Positions 1-46,323 of a stretch of 64,000 nt of DNA are shown here, in pieces. Origin of the DNA: Hordeum vulgare subsp. vulgare (taxonomy: Eukaryota; Streptophyta; Magnoliopsida; Poales; Poaceae); contig NC_058518.1 of the NCBI RefSeq assembly GCF_904849725.1, positions 392,137,581 to 392,201,580 of the forward strand, written 5' to 3'. The notes below the pieces were generated by a model that did not search any database, was not told the DNA's origin, and was given only the letters and a program-made list of their open reading frames with translations. The translations under genes were made by a program, and so were the position numbers. The stretch's first letter is position 1; the number at the start of each line of letters is the position of its first letter.

Positions 1-1350
1 AACAAAAAATTTCCTACGCACACGCAATACTTATCCATGGTGATGATCATCTACGAGAGGGGAGAGTGATTCTACATACCCTTGTAGATCACTAAGCGGA
101 AGCGTATATAATCCGGCTGATGTAGTAGAACATCTTCGCGATCCAAATCGCAGCCCATCTCGTGATCTCATCACGATCCGTCCCTTGATTCCATCACGAT
201 CCATCCCGATCTAGTGTTGAACGGACGGCACCTCCGCGTTCAGCACACGTACAGCTCGATGACGATCACCGCTTTCTTGATCCAGCAAGAGGGGTGGAGA
301 GGTAGATGAGTTCTCCAGCACGGTGGTGTGGTGGTGGTGGTAGTGAATTCATCCAGCAGGGCTTCGCCTAAGAACCGCCGAACTAGGCTAGAGGAGAAAC
401 AGATCTAGAGAGAAGTAGAGGGAGCACGTGGCAATTACGGTTAGCGCTCACCTTTAAAACCTCTATTATATATAGGAGGGAGAGGAGGGGAGGCTGCCTT
501 GGCCCCTCCTCCAAGGACAGGTTCGATCGAGCCAACAAGGGAGGAATCCACCTCCCACAAGGGAGGTGGAATCCTATTAGGACTCCTTCCTAATTTAGAA
601 ACCCTTTCGACCTTTTGGCTTTTTGCCTTATTCCTCCACTCCAGCCGCATGGGAACTTAGGGGAGGCTTTTTCCAGCCCACTAGGGGCTTGTCTACCTCC
701 TCTCACAGACCATGAAGCCTTTGGGTCGTCACACCCCTCCCAGTGGTCCCCTGGTACCTTCCGGGCACTCCCGGTACACTATCGATGAGCCCGAAACCTT
801 TCGAGTGACCAAAACAGGACTTCCTATATATCAATCTTTATCTCCGGACCATTCCAGAGCTCCTCGTGACGTCTAGGATCACATCCGAGACTCCGAACAA
901 CCTTCGGTCACCAACACCTATAACTCAACTATACCAAAACATTACCGAACCTTAAGTGTGCAGACCCTGCGGGTTCGAGAACTATGCACACATGACCTGA
1001 GACGCTCCTCGGTAAATAACCAATAGCGGGGCCTGGATGTCCATAGTGGATCCTACATATTCTACGAAGATCTCTATCGGTTGAACCTCCATGTCAAGGA
1101 TTCAGTTAATCCCGTATGTTGTTCCCTTTGTCCTTCGGTATCTTACTTGCCCGAGATTCGATCGTTCGTATCTCCATACCTAGTTCAATCTTGTTATCGT
1201 CAAGTCTCTTTACTCGTTCAGTAACACAAGATCCCGTGACTAACTCTTTAGTCACATTGCTTCCAACGCTTATTGTGATGTTGTATTGTCATGAATAAGG
1301 AAATATAATAATAACCAATTTATTATTGCCTCTAGGGCATATTTCCAACA
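1..1350 (-). repeat. 3' LTR of Copia element (BARE1/WIS/Angela type), cut by window start
   Basis: This is the downstream LTR of a minus-strand Ty1/copia element. It matches positions 6427-7713 of the other LTR at a constant offset of 6426, with no difference in the stretches I compared. Its first ~22 bases lie outside the window. It ends in CCAACA at 1350. Compared with the other LTR it lacks about 464 bases between 1287 and 1289. The sequence is recognisable as the common Triticeae BARE1/WIS/Angela LTR. Short reading frames inside it are not genes. Confidence 0.93.
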
Positions 1351-1364
1351 GTCTCCCACTTGCA
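1351..1364 (-). other. polypurine tract of the Copia element
   Basis: Read on the minus strand the 14 bases next to the LTR are purine-rich (GCAAGTGGGAGAC followed by TGTTGG of the LTR). This is where plus-strand DNA synthesis is primed in LTR retrotransposons. It fixes the orientation of the element as minus. Confidence 0.75.
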
Positions 1365-4300
1365 CTAGAGTCAATAATCCAGTTCACACCACTTTGTGAT
1401 TGTAATGAATCTAACACCCATACAGTTCTGGGGTTCGATCATGTCTTGCTTGTGTGAGAGGTTTTCAGTCAATGGGTCTGAACCTTTCAGATTCGTGTGT
1501 GCTTTACAAATCTCTATGTCATCCTATAGATGCTGCTACCACGCACCGTTTTGGAACTATTCCAAATGACTGCTCCACTATACGAATCCGGTTTACTACT
1601 CAGAGTTATTCAGATTAGTGACAAAGCTTGCATTGACGTAACTCTTTACGACAAACTCTTTAATCACCTCCATAATCGAGAAATATCCCTTAGTCCACTA
1701 GTTACTAAGGATAACTTTGACCGCTGTTTAGCGAATCAATCTTGGATCACTCTTTGTACCCCTTGACAGGCTCATGGCAAGGCATACATCAGGTGTGGTA
1801 CACAGCATGCCATACATTAGAGCCTACAGCTAAAGCATAGAGGATGACCTTCATCCTTTCTCTTTCTTCTGCCTTGGTTGGGCTTTGAGTCTTACTCAAA
1901 TTCACACCTTACAACACAGCCAAGAACTCCTTCTTTGCCGGTCTATTTTGAGCTCCTTCAAAAACTTGTCAAGGCATGCATTTCGTTGAAAGTTCTATTA
2001 AGTGCTTTGATCTATCTCCTTAGATCTTGATGCTCAATGTTCAAGTAGCTTAATCCAGGTTTTCCTTTGAAAAACTCCTTTCAAACAACCCTTTATGCTT
2101 TCCAGAAATTCTACATTATTTCCGATCAACAATATGTCAACCACATATACTCATCAGAAATTCTATAGTGCTCCCACTCCTTTGGAAATACAAGTTTCTC
2201 ACAAACCTTGTATAAACCCAAAAACTTTAATCATCTCATCAAAGTGTATATTCGAACTCCGAGATTGTTGCTCCAGTCCATAGAAGGATCGCTGGAGCTT
2301 GCATACTTGTTAGCATCCTTAGGATTAACAAAACCTTCTGGTTGTATCACATAAAACCTTTTCCTCAAGGAAACCGTCGAGGAAACAATGTTTTGACATC
2401 CTATGTGCAAGATTTCATAAATAATGCATCAACTGCTAATATAATTCTAACAAACTTTTAGCATCGCTACGAGTGAGAAAGTCTCATCATAGTCAACTCC
2501 TTGAACTTGTGAGAAACATCTTTGTGACAAGTCGAGCTTATTTTATCATCATGTGTCTTCATTTTAAAGATCCATCTGTACTTAACAGTCTTATGACCAT
2601 CAAGTAGTTCTTCCAAAGTCTACACTTTGTTTTCATACATGGATCCTCTCTCGGATTTCATGGCCTCCACCCATTTGTTGGAATCCGGGCCCACCATCGC
2701 ATCTCTATAGCTCGTAGGTTCATTGTTGTCCAACAACATGACCTCCAAGACAGGGTTACCGTACCACTTGTAGTAGTACGTGACCTTGTCGACCTACGAG
2801 GTTTGTAGTAACTTGATTCGAAGTTTCATGATCACTATCATTAGCTCCCACTTAAATTGGTGTAGGCGCCACATGAACAACTTCCTGCGCCCTGCTACAC
2901 ACTGGTTGAAGTGACGGTTCAATAACCTCATCAAGTTTCCACCATCCTCCCACTCAATTCTTTTGAGAGAAACTTTTCCTCAAGAGAGGACACGTTTCTA
3001 GAAACAAACGCTTTGCTTCTGGATCAGAGATAGGAGGTATACCCAACTATTTTGGGTGTCCTATGAAGATGCATTTATCCACTTTGGTTTCGAGCTTATC
3101 AGGCTGAAATGTTTTCACATAAGCATCGCATCCCCAAACTTTTAAGAAACGACAGCTTAGGTTTCTCCAAACCATAGTTCATACGGTGTCATCTCAACGG
3201 AATTACGTGGTGCCCTATTTAAAGTGAATGTGGTTGTTTCTAATACCTAACCCAAAAACGATAGTGATAATTCGATAAGAGACACCATAGTATGCACCAT
3301 ATCCAATAGGGCGCGGCTATGACGTTCGGACACACCATCACACCATGGTGTTCCAGGTGGCATCAGCTGTGAAACAATTTCCATATTATCTTAACTGTGT
3401 ACCAAACTTGCAACTCGGATATTCATCTCTATGATCATATCGTAGACATTTTATCATCTTGTCACGACGATCTTCACTCTGAAATAGCTTGAACTTTTCA
3501 ATATTTTAGGCTTGTGATTCCTCAAGCAAATACTCCTGTATCTACTCAAATCGTCAATGAAGTAAGAACATAACAATATCCACTACATGCCTCAACACTC
3601 ATTGGACTGCACACATCAAAATGTATTACTCCCAACAAGTTACTTTCTTGTTCCATCTCACTGGAAAATTAGGCCTTCAGCCATCTTGCCCATTTGCATG
3701 TCTCAAGTGATTCAAAATCAAGTGAGTCCAAACGATCCATCTACATGGAGTTTCTTCATGCGTTTATACCAATAGACATGGTTCCCATGTCTCAAACTTT
3801 TAAAAAATGAGTGAGTCCAAAGATCCATCAACATGGAGATTCTTCATGTGTTTTATACCAATATGACTCAAGTGGCAGTGCCACAAGTAAGTGGTACTAT
3901 CATTACTACTTTATATCTTTTGGTATCAATATTATGAACATGTGTATTACTACGATAGAGATTCAGTAAACCATTCATTTTAGGTGCAAGACCATTGAAG
4001 GTATTATTCAAATAAAGAGAGTAACCATTATTCTCTTTAAATGAATAATCGTATTGCGATAAACACAATCTAATCATGTCTATGCTCAATGCAAACACCA
4101 AATAACAATTATTTAGGTTTAACACTAATCCCGATGGTAGAGGGAGCGTGCAATTTTTGATCACATCAACCTTGGAAACACTTCCAACACATATCATCAC
4201 CTTGCCTTTAGCTAGTCTCCGTTTATTCCGTAGCTTTTATTTCGAGTTACTAACACTTTGCACCCGAACTGGTATCTGATACCCTGGTGCTGCTAGGAGT

Positions 4301-5800
4301 ACTAGTAAAGTAGACATCAATAACATGTATATCTAATATTCTTTTGTCGACTTTGCCAGCCTTCTCGTATACCAAGTATCTAGGGTAGTTCCGCTTCAGT
4401 GACCGTTCCCCTCATTACAGAAGCACTTAGTCTTGGGTTTGGGTTCAACCTTGGGTTTCTTCACTAGAGCAGGAACTTGTTTGTTGTTTCATGAAGTATC
4501 CCTTCTTGCCCTTGCCCTTCTTTAAACTAGTGCTTTTACTAACCATCAACAATTGATGCTCCTACTTGATTTCTACTTTCGCGGTGTCAAACATCGGGAA
4601 TAGCTCAAGGATCATCATATCTATCCCTGATATCTTATAGTTCATCACGAAGCTCTAGTAGCTTGGTGGCAGTGACTTTGGAGAACCATCACTATCTTAT
4701 CTGGAATATTAACTCCCACTTGATTCAAGCGATTGTAGCACTCAGACAATCTGAGCACATGCTAAACGATTGAGATTTTCTCCCTTACTTTGTAGACAAA
4801 CAATCTTGTCGGAGGTCTCATACCTCTCAACAAGGACACGTGCCTGAAATCCCAATTTCATCCCTTGGAACACCTCGTATGTCCCGCGATTTTCGAAACG
4901 TCTTCAACGCCTCAATTCTAAGCCGTTTAAGCATTATGCACTGAACTATCATGTAGTCATCAAAAACGTGTATGTCAGATGTTCGCAACATCTACAGACG
5001 ACTCTCGGGGTTTAGCACACCGAGCGGTGCATTAAGGACATAAGCCTTCTGTGCAGCAATGAGGACAATCCTCAGTTTACGGACCTAGTCCGCATAATTG
5101 CTACTATCATCTTTCAACTAAATTTTCTCTAGGAACATATTAAGAATAGTAGAGCTACAGCACAAGCTACAACATAATTTGCAAAGACCTTTTGACTATG
5201 TTCATGATAATGAACTCAATTAATCATATTACTTAAGAACTCCCTCTCAAATTGACATCCCTCTAGTCATTCGAGTGTCGCATGATCCAAATTCACTAAC
5301 TCAAGTACGATCATCACGTGAGTTCAATTTAGCTTCAATGGTGAACATCTCCATGTTGATCATATCAACTATATGATTCATGCTCGACATTTCGGTCTCT
5401 TGTGTTCCGAGGCCATGTCTGTACATGCTAGGCTCGTCAAGTTTAACCCGAGTGTTCTGCGTGTGCAACTGTTTTGCACCTGTTGTATGTGTACATTGAG
5501 TCTATCACACCCGATCATCACGTGGTGTCTCGAAACGACGAACTTTCGCAACGGTGCACAGTCGGGGAGAACACAATTTTATCTTGAAATTTTAGTGAGG
5601 GATGACCTTATAATGCTACCGTCGTCCTAAGCAAAACAAGGTGCATAAAAGGATTAACATCACATGCAAATCATAAGTGACATGATATGGCCATGAACTT
5701 GTGCTTCTTGATCTCCATCATCAATGCACCGGCATGATCTCCATCGTCACCGGCGCCACACCATGATCTCCATCATTGTGCTGCCATCGAGGTTGTCGCG
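1365..5800 (-). pseudogene. decayed Copia gag-pol polyprotein
   Basis: Remains of a single gag-pol frame of BARE1/WIS type, read right to left as gag, protease, integrase, reverse transcriptase and RNase H. The clearest block is 4200-3868, where LPSGLVLNLNNCYLV and NTHVHNIDTKR correspond to the stretch between protease and integrase (GAG_pre-integrase region). A zinc-knuckle remnant (CFCNEGNGH followed by a stop) lies near 4420-4390. Integrase-like sequence lies near 3850-3000 and RT-like sequence near 2700-1400. No open stretch exceeds about 110 codons, whereas the family polyprotein is near 1,280 residues, so the copy is dead. The limits given are approximate. Confidence 0.8.
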
Positions 5801-6390
5801 CTAACTATGTTGTTACTACTAAAGCTACTACTAGCGATAAAGCAAAGCATCTCCAAGTGCAAAAACAATTAAAGACAACCCTATGGCTCCTGCTGGTTGC
5901 CGTAGCATCGACATGCAAATTCAAATTAACTGTTACAACATGATCATCTCATACATCCAATATATCATATCATGTCTTTGGCCATATCACATCACATGCA
6001 TACCCTGCAAAAACAAGTTAGACATCCTCTAATTTGTTGTTGCATGTTTTACGTTGCTGCTATGGGTATCTAGTATGATCGCATCTTACTTACGCAAACC
6101 ACAACGGTGATATGCAAGTTGCTATTTAACCTCCTAAAAGGACCGCCTCGGACAAATCCGATTCAACTAAAGTTGAAGAAACAGGCACCCGCCAGTCATC
6201 TTTATGCAACAAGTTGCATGCTAGTCAATGAAACCGGTCTCTCGTAAGCATACGATTAATGTTGGTCCGGGCCGCATCAATCCAACAATATCGTTGAATC
6301 AAGAAAAAACTAAGGAGGGTAGAAAATTGAACATCAACGCCCACAAACTCTTTTGTGTTCTACTCGAGATAGCATCTACGCATGAACCTA

Positions 6391-6404: not shown

Positions 6405-8239
6405 TGTTGGGGAAACTTGCATGGGAAACAAAAAATTTCCTACGCACACGCAATACTTATCCATGGTGATGATCATCTACGAGAGGGGAGAGTGATTCTA
6501 CATACCCTTGTAGATCACTAAGCGGAAGCGTATATAATCCGGCTGATGTAGTAGAACATCTTCGCGATCCAAATCGCAGCCCATCTCGTGATCTCATCAC
6601 GATCCGTCCCTTGATTCCATCACGATCCATCCCGATCTAGTGTTGAACGGACGGCACCTCCGCGTTCAGCACACGTACAGCTCGATGACGATCACCGCTT
6701 TCTTGATCCAGCAAGAGGGGTGGAGAGGTAGATGAGTTCTCCAGCACGGTGGTGTGGTGGTGGTGGTAGTGAATTCATCCAGCAGGGCTTCGCCTAAGAA
6801 CCGCCGAACTAGGCTAGAGGAGAAACAGATCTAGAGAGAAGTAGAGGGAGCACGTGGCAATTACGGTTAGCGCTCACCTTTAAAACCTCTATTATATATA
6901 GGAGGGAGAGGAGGGGAGGCTGCCTTGGCCCCTCCTCCAAGGACAGGTTCGATCGAGCCAACAAGGGAGGAATCCACCTCCCACAAGGGAGGTGGAATCC
7001 TATTAGGACTCCTTCCTAATTTAGAAACCCTTTCGACCTTTTGGCTTTTTGCCTTATTCCTCCACTCCAGCCGCATGGGAACTTAGGGGAGGCTTTTTCC
7101 AGCCCACTAGGGGCTTGTCTACCTCCTCTCACAGACCATGAAGCCTTTGGGTCGTCACACCCCTCCCAGTGGTCCCCTGGTACCTTCCGGGCACTCCCGG
7201 TACACTATCGATGAGCCCGAAACCTTTCGAGTGACCAAAACAGGACTTCCTATATATCAATCTTTATCTCCGGACCATTCCAGAGCTCCTCGTGACGTCT
7301 AGGATCACATCCGAGACTCCGAACAACCTTCGGTCACCAACACCTATAACTCAACTATACCAAAACATTACCGAACCTTAAGTGTGCAGACCCTGCGGGT
7401 TCGAGAACTATGCACACATGACCTGAGACGCTCCTCGGTAAATAACCAATAGCGGGGCCTGGATGTCCATAGTGGATCCTACATATTCTACGAAGATCTC
7501 TATCGGTTGAACCTCCATGTCAAGGATTCAGTTAATCCCGTATGTTGTTCCCTTTGTCCTTCGGTATCTTACTTGCCCGAGATTCGATCGTTCGTATCTC
7601 CATACCTAGTTCAATCTTGTTATCGTCAAGTCTCTTTACTCGTTCAGTAACACAAGATCCCGTGACTAACTCTTTAGTCACATTGCTTCCAACGCTTATT
7701 GTGATGTTGTATTACCGAGTGGGCCCCGAGATACCTCTCCGTCACACGGAGTGACCAATCCCAGTCTTGATCCATAACAACCCAATATACACCTTCAGAG
7801 ATACCTGTAGAGCACCATTATAATCAACCATTTATGTTGCGACGTTTGATACACACAAGGTATTCCTCTGGTGTGCGGGAGTTGCATGATCTCATGGTCA
7901 TAGGAACAGATACATTGACATGCAGAAAACAATAGCAATAAACTGACACGATCATATGCTACGTTTATAGTTTGGGTCTTGTCCATCACATCATTCTCCT
8001 AATAATGTGATCCCGTTATCAAGTTACAACACTTGTCTATGGCTAGGAAACCTTGACCATCTTTGATAAACGAGCTAGTCAACTAGAGGCTCACTAGAGA
8101 CAGTGTGTTGTCTATCTATCCACACATGTATTTGAGTTTCCAATCAATATAATTATAGCATGGATAATAAACGATTATCATGAATAAGGAAATATAATAA
8201 TAACCAAATTATTATTGCCTCTAGGGCATATTTCCAATA
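6405..8239 (-). repeat. 5' LTR of Copia element
   Basis: Full-length LTR of about 1,835 bases, starting TGTTGGGGAA on the plus strand and ending CCAATA, where CCAACA is expected, so one terminal base is changed. It carries the ~464-base segment (7714-8177) missing from the other copy. In the stretches compared, 6427-7713 equals 1-1287. The last ~60 bases differ from the other copy by at least one substitution. The matching target-site duplication would lie left of the window and cannot be checked. Confidence 0.93.
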
Positions 8240-18052: not shown

Positions 18053-18176
18053 AGATGGAGCTGGTAACCCGAGCGAGGGTTGCGGGAGCAGTTACCACGC
18101 ACCTAAACTAGCAGATGGAGCTGGTAACCCGAGCGAGGATTGCGGGAGCAGTTACCACACACCTAAACTAGCAGAT
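18053..18176 (+). repeat. 60-bp tandem duplication, two copies
   Basis: The 60-base unit beginning AGATGGAGCTGGTAACCC is present twice in tandem with two G/A differences between copies (GAGGGT/GAGGAT and CACGC/CACAC). The period is an exact multiple of three, so a frame across it gains a 20-residue repeat, but no gene is otherwise supported here. Confidence 0.85.
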
Positions 18177-18483
18177 CGGGCGTACGTAATGCTTTTGATT
18201 CGACGGTCAAAGACTAGTCTGATAGCATGTAAATTATCTGTAGTCTGATGCCTAGTGGTGCCCATTTCAATATCCTTATCTGCTTCAAAGTTGTTATTCT
18301 TTGTAGTACCATTTTTTGTGTGGATCGATTATCAATGATTACACACATTGTTTATTACAAAATTTTGTTGTACTAAAATCTCCCAAAACTAAAGTTTTTT
18401 ACTTACGGTGTTGATGAATATTCCAGTCCAAGAGCTTAAGAGAAATGAATAATATGTATGGTGTTACTCAGTTATAGTATCTC

Positions 18484-18499
18484 AAAACTGAACATTATT
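18484..18499 (+). repeat. left target-site duplication of the LINE
   Basis: AAAACTGAACATTATT here matches AAAACTAAACATTATT at 24267-24282 in 15 of 16 positions. The pair brackets the whole rearranged LINE; the leading As may in part belong to the poly(A) tail on the right side. Confidence 0.8.
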
Positions 18500-19467
18500 A
18501 CTTCCTCTCCCTTCTCCGCATCCACATTCCTCCCCTCCGTACTCCTCGAGTTCTCCTTGCGCCAGGACAGGCCATCACTGCCGCTCCCCGTCTTCTCCTG
18601 AGATCGGCTACTACCAAAGGGTCGTGAGACTCCTGAACCTCGCCCTCTACCCCTCAAGCTGCCAGACTCTTCCCCGTGCACCTTCCTGCGACCCATGTCT
18701 GCCCGGAGCCAACCTCCGAATTGCACCCGTCTATTCTTGTCCAGTTGCATGTCGCACGCCCTTTCGCTATGTCCCACCATTCCACACACATAACAAAATC
18801 CAGGCAAAAACTCATATTCAAATCGACACCACGCCCCCTCTTCCTCCTCTCTTCCTCCATCGATATTCATCATCTTCTTCTGTTTCTGCCTTCCACCATC
18901 CTCCGCATCATCCAGCATAAAGCCCCTCATGATTGGTTTGTCTATGTTCATTCTGATCTTAACTCTCAGAAATTTCCCCATGGCTACTCCATCAGCTCCA
19001 ACACCCGCTTACAAAAAACTACCAACGAGGTTCCCAATCTCCTTTGCCGTTACTTCATTCATCATCCCCAACGGGAGACTGAATACCCTCATCCAGATGG
19101 GGATCTCATTGAACTCATAGTCCTCCGGCCGCTTCCCCGGATCATAGTCCTCCACCACTACCAGATTCTTCTCAAACATCCACGGGCCATCCTTCAACGC
19201 CCTTCGTTTCCCCGATTCCTGGTGGAACGTGAACACAAACAAGTTCTCCCCCACCTCCTTGCATTCGATACCTTTGATCGGACACCACACACGCCCCAAC
19301 GACAGTCGGATTGCGTCAGGGTGAGCCAGCTTCTCCGACAAGACTTTCCCTACCGCCTGCGCCATCGGGATCTTCCCCCTCGCCTTCCCCGACACCCTGA
19401 TCTTGACTCTACGTCGTTCTTCCTCCGTCAACCGCAGCCCCCGCATCAGCCCATCAACCGCCTCCAT
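18500..19467 (-). pseudogene. LINE ORF1, N-terminal and zinc-knuckle part (inverted)
   Basis: Read on the minus strand from ATG at 19467. The first ~150 residues form a DUF4283-type domain (GKVLSEKLAHPDAIRLSLGR, ALKDGPWMFEKNLVVVEDYD, IPIWMRVFSLPLG). A single in-frame TAA at 19011-19009 interrupts it, and the same frame continues with GKFLRVKIRMNIDKPIMRG and the knuckle CYVCGMVGHSERAC (C-x2-C-x4-H-x4-C), then an arginine/glycine/serine-rich linker. The frame leaves the element at about 18500. In plant LINEs this protein binds the element RNA. The C-terminal part of the same ORF is found on the other strand at about 19610-20015. Confidence 0.85.
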
Positions 19468-19609
19468 CTCCCTTCGCACTCCTGGTCTGACCCGATTTAG
19501 GGTTTAAGGTGGTGTACGACCGTGCGACCCCGGGCACACGGAAGGCTGTGAGGTGGTGATGGGATCTACTCTCGCCGGGACGTGGGTGGCAGGCACTGCG
19601 CCGCAGATC

Positions 19610-20015
19610 AGAGACCCCGCAGAATGCCCCTTCTGCTAGCGAGAGAGGCCAACCTAAGAAACTGCAGCTGGTCGAGCAAGGGGGAGGAGACCCGGGTAAC
19701 AGGCAACAAACAGGGGGGAAGGCCCTCGCATCTGAGCGGTTGATCAGTAACCCTGCCGCTAAGGACATGGAGAATGATGCCATCTCGCCTCTTGGCAGCT
19801 CCGGGGATGAAGGACTGCACCACACAATATTGCAGGAGGAGTGCCCGATCACAGCAGAGGTAGCAGGAGGGAAACCAAGAGAGGCTGGACAGCGGAAATT
19901 CAAAAGGCTTAGGCGGGAGAGTAGGGTGGGTGATGGAGGAGACCTACAACCCAGTAGGCTGATAGGAGCCAAGCGGTCAAAGGAAGGGGCTCTGGAGGAA
20001 GTAGAGGCAAAATGA
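19610..20015 (+). pseudogene. LINE ORF1, C-terminal part (forward orientation)
   Basis: A basic, low-complexity frame ending in a stop at 20013-20015, with QRKFKRLRRESR near the end, typical of the tail of plant LINE ORF1 proteins that lies just before ORF2. It is separated from its N-terminal half by the inversion. Its 5' limit coincides with the inversion junction, placed only approximately. Confidence 0.6.
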
Positions 20016-20125
20016 GGGCGGATGGAGTTGTGTGAGGAGGTAGACGGGGTGAAGGAGGGGGAGACTGAGGCAACACCACAATTGAATTTATCGGCCGGGC
20101 TGTTGGAACAGCCCTGCCGAACGCA

Positions 20126-23100
20126 ATGAAACTCATTGGATGGAACTGCCGGGGGCTCGGGAATGGCCCGACAGTTCAAAGTCTCCTCGAGTTGGGGAGA
20201 ATGGAGGATCTCGACATCCTTTTCCTGTCGGAAACCAAGCTTACCGAGAAGGAATTGGAGAAGTTCAAGTGGCGCTTGGGGCTAGGTAACATGGTTGCAT
20301 GGAGTGCGGTAGGAAGGAGTAGAGGGGTTGCTCTACTTTGGAAGAAGGAGGTACATGTGACACTTCGGTCGTATGGTCGACGGCACATTGATGTGGATGT
20401 CATGGAAGAATTCGGTGCTATATGGAGGCTAACGGGGATATATGGCAAGTCGGAAGCGGAGCGTAAAACAGAAAAATGGCGTACACTGCGATTGCTAGGG
20501 CAACAACACCAACAAGGGAGACCATGGATGTGTTTTGGGGATTTCAATGAGATCCTACTGGATGGAGAGAAGGTGGGAGGGAGCCGTAGACCTCATGCGT
20601 GCATGGATAGGTTTCGTGAGACGCTGGAGAATGCCGGGTTGTGTGATATTGGCTACACCAGAGACAAATTCACGTGGAGGAACCATAGCAAAGAGGCGCG
20701 TTCATATATATGCGAACGGCTCCCGAGCAACAGCAAATACCGAATGGTGTGAGATGTTTCCAGGCTTCACCGTGGTGCATGGGCGGCCGCGCCACTCGGA
20801 TCATTGACCGTTAATCGTTAACACGGAGGGTGTGGTTGGCCGGCAGTGTCAAGGAGGCGATAGGGGGTTTTGATTTGAAGCATGGTGGCTACAGGAGGAG
20901 GGGTGTGCCGCAGCTATCAAGGAGGCATGGGACGAAGGAAGGGCGGAAGGTGGCAACATTGCTCAGAATCTGAGGAAAGTGGCAACCAAGATGCGAGTAT
21001 GGCATAAGGAGGAGGTAGGGGAGATAGAGGAAGACTGAAGAAGGCACAGGCAGAGCTGGAGAGATGTATGTGCGCACCAGTGTCTGAGTCGAAGGTCCGA
21101 GAAGAGAGGAGGCTACGGGGTGTAGTGCATGACTTGGAGGAGAAGAAACACATCAAAGCAAAACAACGGTCCCATGTCGCTTGGCTCAAGGACGGGAATA
21201 GGAACACGAAGTATTTCATGGCGGTGGCTTCAGCTAGGGGGAAGAAGAATAAAATTAAGGGGCTCAGGAGGGAGGATGGATCGGTAGTGCAGGAGGGGGA
21301 AGAGCTAACCACTTATGTGTGCTCCTTTTTTCAGGACTTATTCACTTCAAACTTGGGGGCCATATGGAGGACCTCCTGCGCAAGGTACAACCTGGAGTAA
21401 CACACGCGATGAACACCCTCATGTCGGCTACGTTCACTAGGGAGGAGATCAAAGCTACCCTTGATCATATAGGAGATCTGAAGGCACCTGGCCCGGATGG
21501 TATGCCCTCCGTTGTGTACAAGAGGAACTAGCATCTCATGGGGGATCAAGTAGTGGAGGAAGTATTAACAGTGCTCAATGGAGGCGCGATTCCAGAAGGG
21601 TGGAATGACACTCTCATTGTTCTTATTCCCAAAGTTAAATCACCGAGTAGGATCAAGGATTTGCGCCCCATCAGCTTGTGCAATGTGGTCTATAAGTTGG
21701 TGTCCAAGGTAATCGTGAACAGGATGAAACTGATCCTGCCAGAGATCATCTCAGACAACCAGAGTGCTTTTGTACCTGGCCGACTTATCACCGACAATAT
21801 GCTGATCTCATATGAGATTTCAGACTATCTCCTCCACAAGACCAAGGGGAAAGAAGGGTTTGCGGCGATCAAGGTGGACATGAGCAAGGCGTATGACCGG
21901 GTCGAGTGGAGATTCCTGGAAGCAATGCTATGCAGGTTGGGCTTCGGCTCCGAGGTTGTACAGCTCATCATGCGATGCGTTACCACCGTGAGATATCAAA
22001 TTAAGGTTAATGGTGATCTCAAGAAGCAGTTCTGTCCGACAAGGGGCCTCCGCCAAGGGGACCCTCTGTCGCTGTACTTGTTTGTCATCTGCGCGGAAGG
22101 CCTGTCGGCATTACTCCAAGAGGCGGAGGGCGTAGGGCGGATAAGTGGGTGAAAATATGCAGCACGGCACCCACGGTGTCACATCTATTCTTCCCTGATG
22201 ATTCCGTCCTGCTTATGAAAGCTGAACCGAGGGAGGCGTTAGTGTTAAAGGAAATTCTGGATCTGTATGAGAGTTGCTCCGGCCAATGCATCAATACAGA
22301 GAAATCAGCTGTAATGTTCAGCCCCAATACCGCGGAAGGCACATGCATGGTTGTGAAGAACATTCTGGGGATCCAGAGCGAGACATGGAACGAGAAATAC
22401 TTGGGTTTGCCGGTTCATGTGGGCCGATCTAGGAGGAAATCGTTCACTTACATCAAGGGGGCGGTCGCAGGGAAGGTTTATGGTTGGAAGGAAAAGCTTA
22501 TTGCGAAGCCAGGCAAGGAAACCCTAGTCAAAGTCGTGGCACAAGCAATCCCTACCTATGCTATGTTCTACTTCTATCTTACAAAGTCTTTCTGTGAGGA
22601 GCTTAGTTCGATGCTGGGGAAATACTGGTGGAGCCAGCAAGAGAAGGAAAACACCATTCATTGGATCAGCTGGGAGAAGCTCACAAAACCGAAAGATCAG
22701 GGAGGCTTGGGCTTCAGGGATATGGACTGTTTCAATATAGCTATGTTATCCAGGCAGATTTGGAGGCTAATTCAATGTCCAGAATCACTGTGTGCTAGGG
22801 TACTGAAGGCACGGTACTTCCCCAACACTCATGTTCTTGATGCTACCCCACGTCCTGGCACCTCGTACTCCTGGAGAAGCCTGTTGCATGGACTGGAGCT
22901 CATCAAGGACGGGTACATATGGCGCATTGGAGATGGGATGAACGTTAACATATGGAAAGATCCTTGGATACCGAAACCGTGGTCGCGAAGAGTGATCACT
23001 CCCCGGAGGGGCATCCTGTTTGAGCGCGTCAGTGAGCTCATTGATCCAACTACTGGCTCTTGGGATGAAAGGCTTGTTCGCGAGACCTTTTGGGAGGACG

Positions 23101-24244
23101 ATGCCCGATATATTATGCAGATCCCATTGAGGGAAGGGGTGTCGTACTTTGTGGCCTGGCAGTATGATAGCAAAGGATCTCATTCCGTTAAGAGCGCCTA
23201 TAAGCTACAGGTTCAGCTACATAAACACTTGACACGGGGAGATGTGGGGTCCAGTGTGGCAGCGGCTCCTATCAACCCACGCTCTGCTGATTCATGGCGC
23301 CGGTTGTGGAAGCTCAGAGGGCCGAGGAACATCCAGATGATCGCATGGAGGTTAAAGCACGAATCTGTTAGAGGGGCATCCCAGTGGAGAACACAAAATG
23401 CCTCTTCTATGGTAAATCTGAAGAGGATGGGGGACACCTGTTTATCAAGTGCAAAAACGCCAAGGCGGTTTGGCGAGAGCTTGCGCTGGAGCCAGAACGG
23501 CGTGAACTGCAGGAAATTCCATCGGTGCACCACGCGTTGGATTACATCTGGAGCCTCAGTGAGCACAAACGGATGCTTATCATTACCTTCTGGTGGCTTT
23601 GGTGGTCTAACCGGAATAAGCTTAGGGAAGGGGAGCTACCGGAATCCGCAGAGGTAGTCGCTCGAAGGACACGGGCTAATGTTATCCAATATGAGCAAAT
23701 ATATTGCGTGCCGAAGGCTGGGCTGTCTCCCCAACGGTGGCGGCCGCCCCCTGATGACATGATCAAGATCAATGTGGATGGCTCTTTCAATCCGGGACAG
23801 GAGGGCTCGGGGTGGGGTGTTATCGACCGTGATGCAGAAGGAGCGGTGATTGCGGCAAGGGCAGGCAGGCAGGATCATGTCTATGACGCCTTTGCGGCAG
23901 AGGTTTATGCCCTTGCACATGCGATATCATGTGCTGCTGAGCTTGGCCTGGTGCGAGTCCTTTTCGAGACAGATTGCACACTGCTCCATGAGGCCATGGA
24001 CTTTGCTCGGGTGGATGCTTCAGCATATGCAGCGGTGATCGAGGACCTCAAGTTTCAGCTCAAGATGTGGTTCTCCAAACATAAGATCACGGTGTGCCAT
24101 AGAGAGGCTAACACGACAGCGCATAACCTAGCTAGCATAGGTCGGTCGTATGCTTCTAACCACTTTGAGGAGTGGGAATACCTTGTACCTGCCCCAGTGG
24201 CAGCTTGTGTCGAGGGCGTTTTACCCTCACACCGTTTAAGTTAA
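20126..24244 (+). pseudogene. LINE ORF2: endonuclease, reverse transcriptase, RNase H
   Basis: Starts MKLIGWNCRGLGN, the start of an apurinic-type endonuclease (SETKLTEKELEKF, CFGDFNEIL; RPRHSDH in another frame). The reverse transcriptase follows from about 21068 (SHVAWLKDGNRNTKYF, LKAPGPDGMP, LIPKVKSPSRIKDLRPISL, DMSKAYDRVEW, GLRQGDPLS). The catalytic box reads FPDD near 22190 where FADD is expected. Then come the thumb (KYLGLPVHVGRSRR), a zf-RVT region and an RNase H domain from about 23760 (VDGSFNPG, AEVYAL, FETDC). The frame is broken near 20700-20760 and 21320-21350, by a TAG at 21529-21531, by a stop/shift near 22150 and by a shift near 23370-23390. The layout is the usual plant L1 ORF2 of roughly 1,370 codons, so little is deleted; the copy is dead by point changes. 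Confidence 0.9.
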
Positions 24245-24266
24245 TGAGTATGGTGTTTACCCTAAA

Positions 24267-24282
24267 AAAACTAAACATTATT
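24267..24282 (+). repeat. right target-site duplication of the LINE
   Basis: AAAACTAAACATTATT, partner of 18484-18499 with one mismatch. Sequence from 24283 to 24472 holds no recognisable gene. Confidence 0.8.
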
Positions 24283-44850: not shown

Positions 44851-46323
44851 TGCAAGAAATGGGAGATGGGTTGAGAGTATAAAAATATATTTTTTAATTG
44901 AGAACTCAATCTACTAAACTTCACACTTGGTCTCCTTCGGAATCTTATTTTGACTCATCCCCACACAACTAGTCGGGCACAAGTCAAAATGATCCTCTCC
45001 CTTTCGACTTTGAACACTCATGCAATGGATGAGTGCAAGCAAGATATGTTGGCACTTAGGATGGCAAAGAGAATAATGATGGGGAAAGAAGACAAAAAGG
45101 TGTGAAATGCTCACATCAATGAGGACAACCATAGGCGAGAGAAAGCCAAATGATAGATATGAGTGAGGAGTAGGGATTGCCATGCAACAGATGCACATAT
45201 GAGCTAAAGTAAGCTCTCCAATGGAACTAGTGGGGGTGCATCCAACTTTCTTGCTCATGAAGACCTAGAGCTCTTTTGAGTAGGCTCATCATTGGAATAT
45301 ACAAGCCAAGTTCTATAGTGTAAGGGTTCCAACATGACTATGAAGATTGGGGCACCGACATGGAGGAGTGATTGATGAGGGCAATGTGTGTTTATAATTA
45401 GCACTACTGGCTTTCTATGAACTAGCTGTCGTGGATATAAGCCTTATGTATAGATGTTAAATTGCAAGGAATAAAGACCACATATGGTTATACTTGCATG
45501 CATGCAATATTAACAATTCATGATAACAGTATGATGGAAGTTTTGCATGCAGCAATTACGAAATTGATGCAATCATACCTCACCTTATGAGCCATTTAAT
45601 GAGGACATTACGAGGCATTGAACGGCCATGTCGTTCCGTTACCATTTTTCCTGCATGCGGTTAATTACTCAAGTAAAAGACCCACGTAATGCATGCACTA
45701 ACGAGGCATTGAACAACCACATGTTATAGGTCAAGGCTGATTTGTAGGTTGTCATCACAGCGCGTCTCGACTGAGGAGACCCTTGCCGACGACCAGTGAA
45801 GGAGGAAGGAGTGCTGCGTGCCTGCGCTGCGTCGTCCCTGAGCCTCAACCGTGAAGGTCGCCGCCGAGCAGCCGATAACACGACGCCAAAGTCGACGACG
45901 AGACAAACGGCATTGACGGCCGTGTGTGTGCTCAACAACAACGAAGTTGGAGAAGACTATGAGGCGGACGGTGCCAAAGGCCGCGCGTGGAAATGACAAG
46001 GCGGGCGGTGCCAGAGCCGCGCGTGGCGATGATGAAGCGGGCGGTGCTAGAGCCGCGCGTGGTGACGATGAAGCGGCCGACACTGGAGGCCGCGTGTGGA
46101 GACGATGAAGAGGCCGACGCGGGAGGCCGTGCGTGGCGACGACAAAGCGGGCGGTGCCAAAGTCCCGTGTGGCGACGATGAAGCGGCCGGCACCGAAGGC
46201 CGCGCATGGCGACAATGAAACGGACGCCGCCGGCGGCCAGAAATCAATCTACCGCTGGTGGTTGAAGAAATAACCATATGCATCATGGCTCAATAGACGC
46301 TATGCCCCAAGGTGAGCGCCAAC
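44851..46323. other. mixed element debris with a GC-rich minisatellite
   Basis: Up to about 45340 the sequence resembles the 3' non-coding part of element G near 48430-48740 (for example GAGTAGGGATTGCCAT and TCATTGGAATATACAAGCCA in both), so it is a fragment of a related element. TGTCGTGGATATAAGCC at 45427 resembles the LTR start of element H at 46324. Between them lies AT-rich sequence and then a minisatellite. I see no gene. Confidence 0.5.
45959..46230 (+). repeat. 36/37-bp GC-rich minisatellite, about seven copies
   Basis: Diverged units of 36 or 37 bases with the pattern GCGGnCGGnnCnnnAGnCCG followed by CGyGTGGCGACGATGAA. They create long but unconvincing GC-rich frames on both strands. 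The mix of 36- and 37-base units breaks any coding frame. Confidence 0.75.

Follow-up and report, generated by a model that had tools for sequence, protein, structure and literature searches.

A barley LINE in two opposed parts, best explained by twin priming during its insertion

The closest described systems are the 5'-inverted inserts of human L1, for which Ostertag and Kazazian reportedly described twin priming in 2001 (cited in PMC12016303 and PMC4245944), and uninverted copies of this element's own barley family. L1-like LINEs of plants have two open reading frames (ORFs) and an APE-type endonuclease. Yamaguchi and co-workers state that 5' inversions depend on the host and the LINE species, and within their set these are given only for human L1 in human cells and for a single insert of Nimb-2_DR in chicken cells (PMC4245944). 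Plant reports of twin priming were not found by title among the literature matches listed; subscription journals lie mostly outside this coverage, and given its incompleteness the missing reports are no proof of absence. In the excerpts available, PMC3747384 has the word 'inversion' only within a cited title, the account of Arabidopsis Sadhu elements (PMC2848041) gives truncations and short flanking repeats but no element inversion, and for maize (PMC2773423) LINE inversion is absent from the 12 of 19 places shown. The mechanism itself is already known, and the barley LINE described here constitutes a well-resolved plant case: it is highly likely (probability about 0.92) that it arose from a single retrotransposition, in which the target-primed reverse transcription of an L1-like barley LINE involved twin priming.

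The element lies in a 64-kb window, the whole stretch of barley chromosome that was analysed, and is a LINE in two opposed parts whose front fifth is flipped. LINE coordinates are given on the ruler of an uninverted relative of 5,878 nt, L012, and the features are as follows.

18484-18499, plus strand: left target-site duplication (TSD), AAAACTGAACATTATT, of which 18488-18499 is the certain portion
18498-18499, plus strand: 2-nt microhomology of the target 3' end with LINE ORF1, TT (AA in LINE sense), the putative internal priming site
18500-19618, minus strand: inverted LINE 5' part (5' UTR and N-terminal ORF1), L012 nt 91-1210
18500-19467, minus strand: N-terminal coding portion of ORF1 (DUF4283, zinc knuckle), frame broken
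19619-19620, no strand assigned: 2-nt microhomology GC at the inversion junction
19619-24266, plus strand: non-inverted LINE part, L012 nt 1226-5878
19619-20125, plus strand: C-terminal tail region of ORF1, frame broken
20126-24244, plus strand: ORF2 (endonuclease, RT, RNase H), frame broken at several places
24264-24270, plus strand: A run, remnant of the poly(A) tail, its final 4 A common to the TSD
24267-24282, plus strand: right TSD, AAAACTAAACATTATT

The two parts abut at 19618/19619, and 13 nt of the L012 ruler (LINE nt 1213-1225) are absent between them, counted with both shared pairs, AA and GC, assigned to the LINE. On the minus strand, Pfam matches place DUF4283 in the piece 19479-19009 (PF14111, E 3.1e-19) and a CCHC zinc knuckle in the piece 18981-18502 (PF14392, E 6.5e-12). 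On the plus strand, pieces of 20126-24244 match endonuclease (PF03372, E 2.3e-11), RT (PF00078, E 1.5e-23) and RNase H (PF13456, E 7.7e-16), and zf-RVT (E 0.0022, 19 bits) stays below its cut-off of 27.5. With these ORF1 and ORF2 domains, a poly(A) tail and TSDs, the element has the make-up of an L1-like plant LINE, and both of its ORFs are interrupted by stops or shifts. An earlier, sequence-only reading of this DNA had put the N-terminal half of ORF1 with its zinc knuckle on the minus strand and ORF2 on the plus strand, as the Pfam matches bear out, and the C-terminal tail of ORF1 on the plus strand, where 19619-20125 is collinear with L012. It had also called the copy nearly full-length, and L012 nt 91-5878 is indeed covered except for the small gap. 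The inverted part does run from mid-ORF1 at the left target to the 5' UTR at the junction, as that reading had it, but stops ~88 nt short of the 5' start motif shared by the relatives that reach the 5' end, so that the copy is almost but not entirely complete.

The insert resembles human 5'-inverted L1 in the length of its TSD, in the position of the inverted 5' part at the left TSD, in its TTTT/G cut site, in its short microhomologies and in the small gap between the two cDNAs. It differs in being a plant LINE in a plant host, and its parts sum to nearly the full element, whereas inverted human germline inserts have a median total of 1,363 bp (PMC12016303).

A 16-base TSD with one mismatch had been claimed for the locus. 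The direct repeat formed by 18484-18499 and 24267-24282 is identical at 15 of 16 positions and brackets both LINE parts, but its first four A are indistinguishable from the poly(A) tail, and hence only 12 nt, one of them mismatched, are certainly duplicated. The objection that such a match might be no better than chance does not hold at that place, where no other 16-mer pair among 1,405,104 left-by-right flank pairs reaches 15/16; in a looser random sampling, with 17 offsets per draw and a 60-bp tandem repeat within the flanks, 67 of 200,000 draws were as good. The first nick, on the bottom strand, reads TTTT/G, which is among the endonuclease cut sites counted for human L1 (PMC12016303). When the genome (4.21 Gb, 180 contigs) was searched with the left flank, neither a second copy of the site nor an empty one inside a repeated host element appeared among the scored matches; those besides the window, starting from 18084, end at or before ~18274 (most at ~18263), short of the insertion point.

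Several repeats were observed around the element and elsewhere in the window. The 60-bp unit stands in tandem at 18053-18172, within a dispersed repeat whose matches stop at ~18263. Near the TSD, the left flank at 18450-18465 resembles the LINE 3' tail at 24242-24257 (14/16); an older nested copy was considered on this ground and rejected, and the likeness is taken as chance, since equally high scores came from 58 of 2000 resamplings of the flank by a first-order Markov model and from 13 of 1159 real windows of 100 nt. Further away, 1-1287 and 6427-7713 are direct repeats of 1,287 bp that are 100% identical and enclose no ORF of at least 250 aa; they are probably the LTR pair of a very young retrotransposon clipped by the window start. 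Two direct repeat pairs of ~97% identity (40067-40570/43395-43898 and 47468-48058/53219-53811) are possibly LTR pairs, and a GC-rich minisatellite with a unit of ~37 bp occupies 45955-46238 in 7.8 copies.

Mapping the junctions by alignment with uninverted relatives, as the sequence-only reading had proposed, yielded a 2-nt microhomology at each and the 13-nt gap. At the left edge, the nearest relatives read GGAAGT-AA-CAAGCC and the minus strand of the window reads GGAAGT-AA-TAATGTTCAG, the last block being the TSD and AA being common to LINE and target. At the inner junction, ...GACCCC-GC-AGAATG..., the GC is common to the end of the 5' UTR and the restart of ORF1, and in comparison with the relatives neither junction holds extra bases. 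In 6 of 11 relatives, L010 and L009 included, the RNA could pair with four of the last five target bases, and in the remaining five relatives with two or three of them; given that L010 (5,835 nt) contains AA 384 times and a 4-of-5 match 53 times, microhomology with the target alone proves little. The 2-nt microhomologies fit twin priming and are weak evidence by themselves. In human inverted L1, ~70% have 2-5 bp of microhomology at the 5' junction, 28 of 605 have none there and 3.9% carry extra bases (PMC2912911), the two cDNA ends lie 20 bp or less apart in 132 of 287 inverted inserts (PMC12016303), and the TSD of an inverted L1 in cultured human cells usually measures 10-20 bp (PMC4245944). 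The barley copy fits all of these yardsticks, namely microhomology, extra bases, gap and TSD length.

An identical order of parts would arise if a 5'-truncated LINE had inserted normally and its first 1.1 kb had been inverted later through two breaks and end joining, with which the short microhomologies and the 13-nt loss are also compatible. For this reason 'proved', the word chosen in the sequence-only reading, was too strong for twin priming, which layout, TSD and origin do support. Such a later inversion requires that one of its breaks, within ~5.8 kb, coincide exactly with the boundary of TSD and element, and that edge is itself telling. Exact TSDs of 10-19 nt were found in 5 of the 8 copies examined with right ends, and all five of these uninverted copies have unrelated extra bases before the LINE start, between 14 and 45 of them: L009 (18-nt TSD, 24 extra bases), L012 (19 nt, 45), L016 (16 nt, 29), L020 (15 nt, 22) and L011 (10 nt, 14). 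The inverted window copy, in contrast, has zero, and an inversion after insertion is improbable. The lack of extra bases in the inverted copy is in line with the contrast between inverted and truncated human inserts (PMC2912911). The TSD assignments of L013 (14 nt with one mismatch) and L017 (10 nt) are weaker, and that of L022 was discarded as a tail artefact. Simple templating of the extra 5' bases in six copies was likewise rejected, the longest matches being mostly no better than shuffles (the lowest counts were 15/300 for L009 and 34/300 for one L011 flank match).

Opposite strands alone would also permit two separate, opposed LINE insertions, or pieces of two copies joined together, and the relatives bear on this directly. 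Fifteen were taken from the same genome as 10-kb stretches; the ORF1 part is present in 13 of them, and in all 13 it lies ahead of ORF2 on the same strand. Uninverted family copies (L009-L012, L014-L017, L020, L022 and others) are ~83-96% identical to the window copy and have the domain order of the window LINE, but with all parts on one strand. The 3' tail and A run of the window copy recur in 10 of the 14 family copies listed, those lacking them (L010, L015, L019 and L023) having 3' ends that are interrupted, cut or diverged. For the inverted and sense parts respectively, identities are 94.5% and 94.4% to L012 (94.3% and 93.5% in the alignment to its ruler), 95.9% and 95.3% to L010, 94.9% and 94.2% to L009, and 93.8% and 93.9% to L011; the rank of relatives is nearly alike for both parts and the nearest relative is the same. 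Separate trees (12 rows for the inverted part and 11 for the sense part; L018, L019, L021 and L023 were excluded because of truncation, interruption or too great a distance, and in L014 about half of the second part is missing from its stretch) place the window at the same fork, beside L010, L009, L013, L015, L016 and L020, with near-equal end branches of 0.022 and 0.024. In the tree of the inverted part that group has a support of 94/90, below the mark of the tree tool, and in the tree of the sense part one of 100/99, above it.

Given these matching identities, tree places and end branches, the two parts appear to be of the same age and lineage, and the suspicion that the inverted part came from a different LINE copy is not upheld. 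Both parts appear to derive from one source RNA, a match in lineage and age alone being compatible with two sister RNAs. Moreover, the parts complement each other save for 13 nt, a single TSD is common to both, and the inverted part has neither a 3' end nor a poly(A) of its own, so that two insertions or joined pieces, for which the opposed strands were the only support found, have next to no probability. An assembly artefact at the locus is just as hard to credit, for although the case rests on assembled sequence, a mis-join would not be expected to leave a bracketing TSD, halves that fit within 13 nt and zero duplicated sequence. At a substitution rate of 1.3e-8 per site and year, the end branches of 0.022-0.024 would correspond to ~1.7-1.85 million years, a figure given no weight as evidence.

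In the twin-priming model, the endonuclease would nick the bottom strand at TTTT/G, and the freed T end would prime on the poly(A) tail, the first cDNA extending to LINE nt 1226. A second nick, 12-16 nt off, would release the top-strand 3' end (...CATTATT), which would pair with the same RNA inside ORF1 at ~nt 1211 and copy to ~nt 89, and the two cDNA ends would join via GC with the loss of 13 nt. Twin priming is favoured because the parts are in collinear order in the relatives with one TSD outside both, because the inverted part begins within ORF1 right beside the TSD and has its 5'-ward end at the junction, because both junctions combine 2-nt microhomology with zero extra bases and a 13-nt gap, and because both parts share tree placement with near-equal end branches, together with the TTTT/G cut site. 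Order, breakpoints, TSD, microhomologies and common origin are observed, and from them, in a single event, we infer the priming step itself.

The 13 missing nt might further be the footprint of the target overhang, since a 16-nt overhang with its 3' end at nt 1211 would cover nt 1211-1226 and the first cDNA stops at 1226; the first cDNA would then have been stopped by the target strand lying on its template. This reading is doubtful, as the overhang is unpaired beyond its last five bases (in the nearest relatives, 4 of its 16 bases match) and a TSD of 12 nt only would undo the fit. If it were general, gap length and TSD length would co-vary in plant twin-priming inserts.

As for frequency, the family was scanned with three probes (ORF1, endonuclease and 3' end), the best 40 candidates being scored for each. 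The matches amount to at least 58 loci, of which 38 were matched by two or more probes (34 of these including ORF1), and among these 38 the window alone has mixed strands. The other 20 loci, matched by one probe only, are uninformative on strand; seven 5'-truncated ones (L040-L046) were read and 13 left out, and the ~1.7-6.4 kb read upstream of the LINE end contained no opposed LINE piece. The inversion rate is therefore 1 in 45 judged loci (95% limits 0.06-11.8%), in a scan that misses small inversions and breakpoints lying outside the three probes. By comparison, 18.4% of human germline L1 (PMC12016303) and ~10% of human L1 copies (PMC2912911) are inverted, and the chance of 1 or fewer in 45 is 0.001 at the former rate and 0.05 at the latter. 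Given that the samples are unlike in age and length, that the window was the starting point and that small inversions are missed, a rate in the barley LINE family below that of human L1 is only a hint.

For plant LINE work, the low rate seen here provides a figure that can be tested. The finding of such an insert in a cereal suggests that the pathway is independent of animal host factors. Further, a single inverted element of this kind may pass for two opposed fragments in annotation pipelines.
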